Positions 52,987 through 62,225 of a stretch of 64,000 nt of DNA are shown piece after piece. Within the stretch, counting starts at the first letter, position 1. Every line of letters starts with the position of its first letter. This DNA is from Oscillospiraceae bacterium (GTDB lineage Bacteria; Bacillota; Clostridia; Oscillospirales; Ruminococcaceae). The notes beneath the pieces were generated by a model. That model ran no database searches. It was given only the letters and a program-made list of their open reading frames with translations, and was not told the DNA's origin. Location of the stretch: contig JAJQGT010000015.1 of the NCBI GenBank assembly GCA_021201135.1, forward strand, positions 1-64,000. Direction: 5' to 3'. Position numbers and translations under genes: made by a program.

Positions 52987-53994
52987 CTATTTTGATTTGT
53001 TCTTCGCCGTCTTCTCCACATCCTTAATAGTCTCAAGGTATGCCTCCTCAACCGGCGAGAGGTTCTCAGCTATGTACTTCTGGTATTCCGCATTTGCCTT
53101 TTCGATTGCCTGCTTGTGACTTACTTTGCCGGAATCTTCAAGAAGCGGTCTTTCACCGGATGCAAGGACGTTGTCAAGCTGACGGATATAGTCGCTCATA
53201 TACATCGGGCGGTGTTCGATGGCACTGATTTCCGCAAAATCGAAATATCCCGAAACGAGGTTATTAAGAATCTTCAGCTCATCCTCGTTGAGATAGTTTT
53301 TTGCGACAGAAATGTCCTTCTTAAGTGGGAAAGCACCCGAAAAAGCTTTCAAGCCCATAAACGGCTTGCTTGCATCGGCTCTTTCATAAATAACTTCTGC
53401 CGCAGTATGACCGTGAGCGGCATAGTGGAGCTTATTCTGGACGATTTTAAAGAACTGCACCGACTCGTCGCTATGCGGGTCATAGTCAACAGCAGTTGCA
53501 TACAAATCAAGCACCTGACGATAGAGAACTTTCTCTGATGAGCGAATGTCACGGATTCTGTCCAGAAGCTCTTTCCAATAAGTGCCTCCACCGTTACCCT
53601 TGAGACGCTCGTCATCCATTGTGAAGCCCTTGAGCATATACTCTTTCAGGCGTTCGGTCGCCCACTTGCGGAAATGAGTGCCGACGATAGACTTAACTCT
53701 ATAGCCAACGGAAATGATTACATCGAGGTTATAATAATCGACTTTATACGTTTTTCCGTCCGTTGCAGTTGTTGCAAAATTTGCAACAACTGAATCTCTG
53801 TCAAGTTCTCCATCATCAAACACATTCTTTATGTGTCGTGAGATGGTTGATTTATCCCTCTGGAACAGCTCAGCCATTTGGTCAAGAGAAAGCCAAACGG
53901 TCTCGTTTTCAAATTTTACATCCAAATGTGTTGAGCCGTCTTCAGTCTGATATACAATCACTTCACCGTGATTTGTGATTTCGTTGTTTGACAT
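52987..53994 (-). CDS. RhuM family protein
   Basis: A 335-aa protein of the RhuM ('virulence protein RhuM') family: ETVWLSLDQMAELFQRDKST, then ISRHIKNVFDDGELDRDSVVA, VDYYNLDVIISVGYRV and GTHFRKWATERLKEYML. The second half includes a Fic/DOC-like segment (ADASKPFMGLKAFSGAFP). Family members occur in pathogenicity islands and in restriction or defence islands; molecular function is not established. The N-terminus is HTH-like. ATG at 53994 with GGGAGG upstream. Last gene of the operon. Confidence 0.85.
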   Translation of the reverse strand: MSNNEITNHGEVIVYQTEDGSTHLDVKFENETVWLSLDQMAELFQRDKSTISRHIKNVFDDGELDRDSVVANFATTATDGKTYKVDYYNLDVIISVGYRVKSIVGTHFRKWATERLKEYMLKGFTMDDERLKGNGGGTYWKELLDRIRDIRSSEKVLYRQVLDLYATAVDYDPHSDESVQFFKIVQNKLHYAAHGHTAAEVIYERADASKPFMGLKAFSGAFPLKKDISVAKNYLNEDELKILNNLVSGYFDFAEISAIEHRPMYMSDYIRQLDNVLASGERPLLEDSGKVSHKQAIEKANAEYQKYIAENLSPVEEAYLETIKDVEKTAKNKSK

Positions 53995-54013
53995 AGTTAT
54001 CCTCCCGATAAAG

Positions 54014-61600: not shown

Positions 61601-62225
61601 CGCCAACGTCAGAAACGGACATGACTATTCCCTTGACATTCGGATTGCCAATGAGATACACTATACTATTTTCAGCAATATCAATGTCATTGTTACTTAC
61701 AATAGCAACTTCGGTATCTGCGTTTTTGCCATCTGTTTGGTCGTTACTGATACTTGCAAAATCAACTGTAGAGGGAGATTTAACATCGTCTATCATACGG
61801 TCAATTTCATTCAGAAGCTTATCGTCGCAACCCAACTGAGTCAGGAATTCATGAAGCGTGTTTAAATCAGATACGATTGTATCTTTGCCAGGCAAGTCTG
61901 CACTACAATGCGCCCAATTATTGCGGACGCCCATCATAGCCCGGATAACTTCTCTTTCATGCGTAGGCAGATAAGCTACGGTTCTGAGAGTATGCCAAGA
62001 CTTATCCGCAATACGGAGCAGAGCCGCCAAGTCAAAATCAGACAGCTTAGTAAATCTGTTTTCAGCTGCCAACTCACGCTGATGATAACTGAGATTTCCG
62101 ATGACACTGTCTTCCCACCAGTCAGGTGAAGTACGGCTCAACAGCTTTTCCAACCACTGAGCCAATTCAGATGCCGATGTGTGCAGATATGTGTTCATCC
62201 TGCTTACTATCTGATTCGAGTTCAT
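58629..62225 (-). CDS. Swt1-like HEPN domain fused to SNF2-family helicase, 1198 aa
   Basis: N-terminal domain (about 50-130) matches Swt1-like HEPN modules and carries the RNase signature R-X4-H as RNNWAH (R101, H106). The SNF2/RapA-like helicase follows: Walker A [13 protein letters not shown] (K302), DEAH box [11 protein letters not shown] (415-418), motif III LTATPLQ, and C-terminal motifs [20 protein letters not shown]. A coiled-coil tail closes it. The start at ATG 62225 has AAGGAG 7 bp upstream. Fusions of HEPN nucleases with helicases are typical of antiphage systems that sense foreign nucleic acid and cut RNA. First gene of a four-gene operon. Confidence 0.82.
   Translation of the reverse strand: [1198 protein letters not shown]

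Follow-up and report, generated by a model that had tools for sequence, protein, structure and literature searches.

A recurrent gene pair of a HEPN-SNF2 helicase and a sacsin-type protein, a candidate defence system on a mobile island of an Oscillospiraceae genome

The DNA analyzed here (the window) comprises the first 64,000 nucleotides of contig JAJQGT010000015.1 of an Oscillospiraceae genome (assembly GCA_021201135.1). Four minus-strand genes occupy positions 52,987-62,225; all four frames are intact and the gaps between them are 26, 23 and 19 bp, in agreement with the tight spacing described in a sequence-only reading of the same DNA. The first gene (58,629-62,225) encodes a helicase of 1198 aa and the second (gene 2; 55,621-58,602) a sacsin-type protein of 993 aa that, based on profiles, motif scoring and a structure model, is missing the usual ATP motifs; these are the two core genes. 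Gene 3 (54,014-55,597; 527 aa) is accessory, and the fourth gene (52,987-53,994; 335 aa) encodes a RhuM-family passenger. The GC content of gene 2 (0.365) is below that of the helicase gene (0.433) and gene 3 (0.488). Two further minus-strand ORFs encode proteins of 109 aa (52,452-52,781), which in the same-genus relative G001 likewise lies downstream of gene 3, and 188 aa (51,938-52,504), which is also present in G001. On the other side of the helicase are a gene for an XRE-family HTH protein (62,482-62,898, minus strand), a divergent pair of sigma-70-like promoters (62,950-63,032; both scoring 12 of 12, with 17-bp spacers) positioned between the XRE gene and the recombinase operon, and a plus-strand gene for a large serine recombinase (63,342-63,998) of 568 aa in total that extends beyond the end of the window.

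The proposal that the locus lies in a mobile island is borne out by an empty site. In genome G006, DNA matching window positions 49,399-51,696 directly joins DNA matching 65,103-66,268, and the island, which includes the serine recombinase and XRE genes, therefore extends from about 51,697 to 65,102 (13.4 kb, of which 51,697-64,000 is within the window and the last ~1.1 kb beyond it). By eye, the flanking genes appear to be spo0A and rplL, with the latter following the end outside the window. Short inverted termini, CATAAGACAGG/CCTGTCTTATG, are visible by eye at the island ends. Much of the island backbone (XRE gene, recombinase region and a weaker match at the left end) is present in G014 with other cargo, which suggests that the backbone is a platform for exchangeable cargo; the G014 cargo (L168, G014:C12, 11,130-17,098) encodes Bro-N/PDC-S13, a WYL regulator and an AAA ATPase, and is defence-like. 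The island sits inside a copy of a palindromic repeat (window 51,560-51,696) that is scattered through the genus, with 27 matches in the window's own genome (query included) and copies elsewhere in L009 (5101-5160), L006 (10,222-10,321) and L008 (about 9540-9600). The island copy in G001, and perhaps the one in G027, abut other copies of this repeat; since island copies sit in or against repeat copies, the recombinase may use them as landing pads. A second serine recombinase of 674 aa, encoded at window positions 7409-9433, is related to that of the island (phmmer, 4.3e-71) and possibly belongs to another island.

Profile searches confirm the initial reading of the first gene as a Swt1-like HEPN-SNF2 helicase with an intact R-X4-H motif. 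The HEPN domain (61,833-62,174, minus strand) scores 37.6 bits against Pfam PF18731 (cut-off 27.5; E 3e-9), and R101 and H106 of the predicted RNase motif RNNWAH (residues 101-106; 61,908-61,925, minus strand) are both present, in keeping with an R-X4-6-H active site. The SNF2 translocase core (59,808-61,358, minus strand) carries the motifs GVGKT, DEAH and RIGRIDR, and the nearest relative of known structure is RapA (E 6.4e-34). The HEPN arginine and histidine are intact in 72 of the 76 helicases having the domain, with altered motif residues in the other four. Thirteen of 89 rows are without the HEPN region (4 of the 13 run off a contig edge), which together with the four altered motifs indicates that HEPN is not indispensable; the region is missing in all four plasmid copies examined.

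To place the helicase among its relatives, it was aligned with plasmid and viral homologues and the alignment was used to scan one genome per species. At least 573 helicase relatives were recovered, and the best 80 were analyzed as loci; having been picked by helicase similarity, these loci describe that helicase family only. Of the 75 loci with 300 bp or more of sequence beyond the helicase (75 among the best 80 of at least 573), 73 encode a gene-2 homologue in the 4 kb that follow, a count that is partly circular because the gene-2 profile was built from 67 of those downstream proteins. The two exceptions are L085, with a gene-2 fragment upstream, and L057, in which the contig ends 681 bp after the helicase. 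BLAST clustering at 1e-10 places a single gene-2 family in 82 loci, with 80 of its 87 members at the position of the next ORF. The ORF called next after the helicase follows at -4 in 25 and at 0-40 bp in another 41 of the 85 rows, an operon-like arrangement. The core of the system is two genes, encoding the helicase and a sacsin-type GHKL ATPase.

Hosts of the pair are found in the Bacillota, Pseudomonadota, Planctomycetota, Verrucomicrobiota, Spirochaetota, Actinomycetota, Thermodesulfobacteriota, Cloacimonadota and Bacteroidota, and in one archaeal MAG. Many are MAGs, and titles not marked as such include Butyrivibrio sp. MC2013, Pseudomonas sp. BN417, Sphingopyxis bauzanensis and Rhodopirellula rubra. 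The pair also occurs without HEPN on plasmids and with HEPN on a contig bearing terminase and portal genes, and in Phycicoccus elongatus (L087, 9890-16,742 and 18,909-23,496) there is a tandem double copy, of which the second is truncated where the locus ends. SACS proteins are encoded in 6 of 397 other genomes of a phylum-level sample, none of the six showing the usual arrangement with this helicase; the SACS gene of L109 adjoins a distant SNF2-type helicase gene on the opposite strand. Because SACS proteins occur apart from the helicase, the wider family of gene 2 works without it too. The proteins in L107, L108 and L109 (~1585-1627 aa, without the helicase pair) are probably Tiamat-like, and the one in L107 adjoins ORFs that look restriction-related by eye.

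Relatives of the pair often adjoin Type I and Type III restriction-modification (R-M), BREX (PglZ) and RecD-like genes. The recurrent neighbour families, each identified from one representative, are a RecD-like helicase (9 loci), a Type III res-like family (6), a DNA methylase (5), PglZ (4), an HsdR family (4) and a RecB-like TM0106 nuclease (3); no one nuclease gene accompanies the pair throughout. Among 75 near neighbours of 150-1300 aa from 39 loci, PADLOC searches at 1e-20 matched 90 families (many redundant, and families rather than proteins are counted). In the window's genome, 34 core genes served as a control, small and from a single genome, and gave matches to one family, in three members. 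In Lachnospiraceae, a PglZ-family gene lies just upstream of the pair in L040, L041 and L044 and farther off in L038; in L040, the order is PglZ and an Eco57I-type methylase, the pair, and a helicase of the RecD-like family. The expectation that the gene set would recur in unrelated genomes near defence genes thus holds for the helicase and gene 2. Found in many unrelated bacteria and frequently adjoining established antiviral genes, the pair has the look of a widespread defence system.

The assignment of gene 2 to the sacsin type comes through its relatives. The SACS profile is matched by gene 2 in all six relatives scanned with Pfam, SACS or P_loop_sacsin in all three scanned with NCBIfam, and a profile of 49 gene-2 relatives compared with the PDB matches sacsin (2.7e-21). 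The window protein itself matches neither SACS nor any other Pfam or NCBIfam profile. It begins ~40 residues late, and the N-box and G-loop of the GHKL domain, kept in 79 of 81 scorable relatives, are both unrecognizable. Sequence comparison suggests that residues 1-365 (57,508-58,602, minus strand) are a remnant GHKL and S5/transducer-like part; a central region (56,083-57,507, minus strand) is the most variable segment in some allele pairs, and the C-terminus (55,624-56,067, minus strand) is a zinc domain with a degenerate McrA-type HNH fold. The sequence-only reading had described a sacsin-like protein with a terminal cysteine cluster; it overlooked the absence of the ATP motifs from the window copy and the apparent separate arrival of this gene discussed below. 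In 46 aligned HNH-like domains (L078 and L079, in which the first C-x2-C pattern is absent, are omitted), the metal-site residues are C, C, C and C/H throughout: three cysteines are invariant, the fourth position is C (31) or H (15), and the next residue is A/S/G. A profile comparison with McrA shows other residues at the positions of its HH and CH and no catalytic histidine. We considered and rejected an active McrA-type HNH nuclease, the catalytic HH..N..H residues being missing, and the HEPN motif is therefore the sole intact nuclease motif recognized in the pair.

Gene 2 is by far the more variable of the two core genes, and its alignments suggest that it has been exchanged. Between the window and G027, dS is 0.174 for both the helicase and XRE genes and 0.0017 for gene 2, with a sharp step in divergence at ~58,703, within the 3' end of the helicase gene; the near-identical tract spans 55,546-58,703 and adjoins flanks that differ by ~5%. 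With three changes, dN/dS of gene 2 is uninformative. The ~5% divergence of the flank (to 65,000) is uneven, and some 250-bp bins are near-identical (e.g., 59,750; 61,000); the island may therefore undergo frequent exchange over its entire length. The G027 copy stops at a contig end 75 bp beyond gene 2, the end being a 56-bp overlap common to another contig, and the gene-2 identity may reflect same-sample chimerism. From these comparisons, the window gene 2 appears to have been swapped in separately from the helicase.

Other pairs of alleles behave similarly, with exceptions. The window helicase is 96% identical to those of G001 and G002, and gene 2 is 36% and 40% identical; the gene-2 proteins of G001 and G002 are nearly the same over the first ~400 residues and then drop to ~50% in places. 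In L086 and L097 (a Pseudomonas isolate and a viral contig), the helicases are 96% identical and the gene-2 proteins are 35-47% identical at residues 500-800 and 82% at the end. Among five non-window pairs with helicases more than 95% identical, gene 2 is 62-73% identical in three and 93-98% in two, the closest pairs in which gene 2 is as conserved as the helicase being L018/L020 (98%) and L027/L089 (93%). In L078/L092, the greatest gene-2 variation is in the first 300 residues rather than the centre. A double-SACS form of gene 2 requires six changes on the helicase tree, at least five by well-supported branches; the tree is a quick one, and the double-SACS label is still clustered relative to shuffled labels. 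This pattern makes gene 2 a likelier specificity part than the helicase, which the sequence-only reading had proposed, as an inference, to sense foreign nucleic acid with HEPN as effector. The variability of gene 2 could be the look of a target-choosing subunit; alternatively, gene 2 may vary to escape inhibitors and not to choose targets. The swap pattern predicts that phage specificity is set by gene 2 and not by the helicase.

With its own ATP motifs missing, the window protein 2 is either an impaired allele or a variant that depends solely on the SNF2 ATPase. That the window copy is decaying or silenced, with the gene-2 ATPase lost and protection by the locus gone, is a serious possibility, if short of probable: the late start and the absence of both GHKL motifs, so rarely lost among relatives, favour it, but the 993-codon frame is open behind a GGAGG-type ribosome-binding site, the same gene-2 allele occurs in G027 (at a contig end), and the helicases of the window, G002 and G027 show dN/dS of 0.07-0.10.

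Our favoured reading, held at somewhat less than even confidence, is that window genes 1 and 2 are a copy of a widespread two-gene defence system in which gene 2 would be the recognizer and HEPN the RNA-cutting effector, with gene 3 and RhuM as cargo. In protein 1, a HEPN ribonuclease at the N-terminus would be joined to an SNF2 DNA translocase; protein 2 would be a GHKL protein of the sacsin/HSP90 type whose C-terminus is a catalytically degenerate HNH zinc domain. The two would most likely form a complex. The variable protein 2 would choose what is recognized, whether DNA of foreign origin, a structure of DNA and protein, or a phage protein. Powered by the GHKL clamp and the SNF2 motor, a change of conformation or a translocation step would then free the HEPN RNase to cleave RNA and arrest the infected cell. 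What the comparisons establish is the pairing of the genes, their conserved motifs, the siting among defence genes, the variability of gene 2 and the mobile island; the complex, the recognition role, RNA cleavage and any antiviral effect are inferred. A broader version, which we put forward tentatively, is a cross-phylum immune system whose conserved HEPN-SNF2 motor-effector is re-targeted by recombinational swapping of its sacsin-type partner, much as with HsdS in Type I R-M; the window would then be a natural variant, its partner having shed its ATPase and yet still being exchanged between species. In either version the two-gene unit is defined, testable and present in cultured isolates of several phyla.

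The pair could instead act against invading DNA in the manner of restriction, as in MORC/paraMORC or DISARM, with the SNF2 motor and GHKL clamp looping or remodelling that DNA, a neighbouring nuclease damaging it and HEPN serving only as back-up. The core is DrmD/RapA-like, operons of GHKL ATPases with SF2 helicases are described as R-M components in the excerpted text of PMC2292703, R-M genes are among the neighbours, and some helicases, plasmid copies included, are without HEPN. However, the HEPN motif is kept in 72 of 76 proteins, the commonest neighbour (RecD-like) reaches only 9 loci, so no nuclease partner is constant, and the HNH-like domain has no catalytic histidine; we consider this account rather unlikely. 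A non-defence role in DNA maintenance or stress, carried by islands, would suit the RapA-like core and the kinship with sacsin/HSP90, but is improbable given the patchy, mobile distribution and the repeated siting beside R-M and BREX genes.

Under the favoured two-gene reading, gene 3 and RhuM are most likely accessory cargo of the island. The C-terminal ~75 aa of gene 3 resemble PriA-3'BD weakly (E 4.8e-4, under the Pfam cut-off). In G002 and G027, a stretch of 56-62 bp around its start recurs behind BrxL where contigs end (L165, 12,507-12,562; L166, 7111-7172) and the overlap alone is assembled, and gene 3 may therefore be a tail gene common to two defence operons, BREX included. The fourth gene had been correctly named RhuM (356.1 bits against the Virulence_RhuM profile, cut-off 33.7; PADLOC PDC-S05). 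The earlier proposal that all four genes act as one system fits their tight spacing in the window island but is very improbable, as among 98 loci RhuM matches the window's own DNA alone and gene 3 is whole only in the window and G001 (and, of 391 genomes sampled from the class, in the window's own alone), the start of gene 3 also follows a different system, and only the helicase and SACS ATPase recur together.

The earlier view that the set is not a named system agrees with PADLOC and NCBIfam comparisons. DISARM DrmD is the best PADLOC match of the SNF2 core (1.5e-116), but the helicase scores 314.6 bits against a curated cut-off of 610 for NF038317 (NCBIfam), and neither DrmA, DrmB, DrmC nor the methylase is encoded in the window operon, in which the neighbours are gene 2, gene 3 and RhuM. 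TmtA profiles of PADLOC, which we take to represent the Tiamat system, match the first ~560 residues of the canonical gene 2 (E 2.8e-53; positions 33-563 of 1302). These profiles are 1063-1782 positions long, and it is their N-terminal part alone that matches; in the window protein the match is confined to residues 169-436 (E 1.5e-9). Identification of gene 2 as TmtA was rejected, the match not being full-length. We found no description of a helicase paired with a sacsin-type ATPase among the literature matches listed, and the excerpted main text of a 2026 BREX survey (PMC12839542) names no sacsin, Hsp90, Tiamat or DrmD; the pair is apparently unnamed as a system.

Several described systems nonetheless resemble parts of it. 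According to the excerpted text of Iyer, Abhiman and Aravind (2008; PMC2292703), GHKL and S5 domain ATPases adjoin SF2 helicases, one class of which is SWI2/SNF2, in laterally mobile, R-M-like operons. Relatives of the pair share this MORC/paraMORC arrangement, although the window gene 2 itself is without GHKL motifs; the pair differs in that its GHKL protein is sacsin-type with a degenerate HNH tail and its helicase bears HEPN, and the gene-2 tail corresponds to none of the features by which that text characterizes paraMORC2-5 (ExxxH motif, RecB-like nuclease, TIR domain, HxH domain). In GHKL-Shedu VcSduA, a GHKL domain is likewise proposed to control a defence nuclease, but this is a single protein with a PD-(D/E)xK nuclease, unlike the two-gene pair (excerpt of PMC12137116). 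An HEPN-SWI2/SNF2 fusion of the Swt1-like HEPN family, of the same kind as the window helicase, is tabulated with WQE_15321 and called active in the excerpted text of Anantharaman (2013; PMC3710099), which names no sacsin-type partner for such fusions. That text also notes that HEPN and sacsin-like domains meet in animal sacsin, and the pair described here links bacterial sacsin-like proteins to an HEPN RNase.
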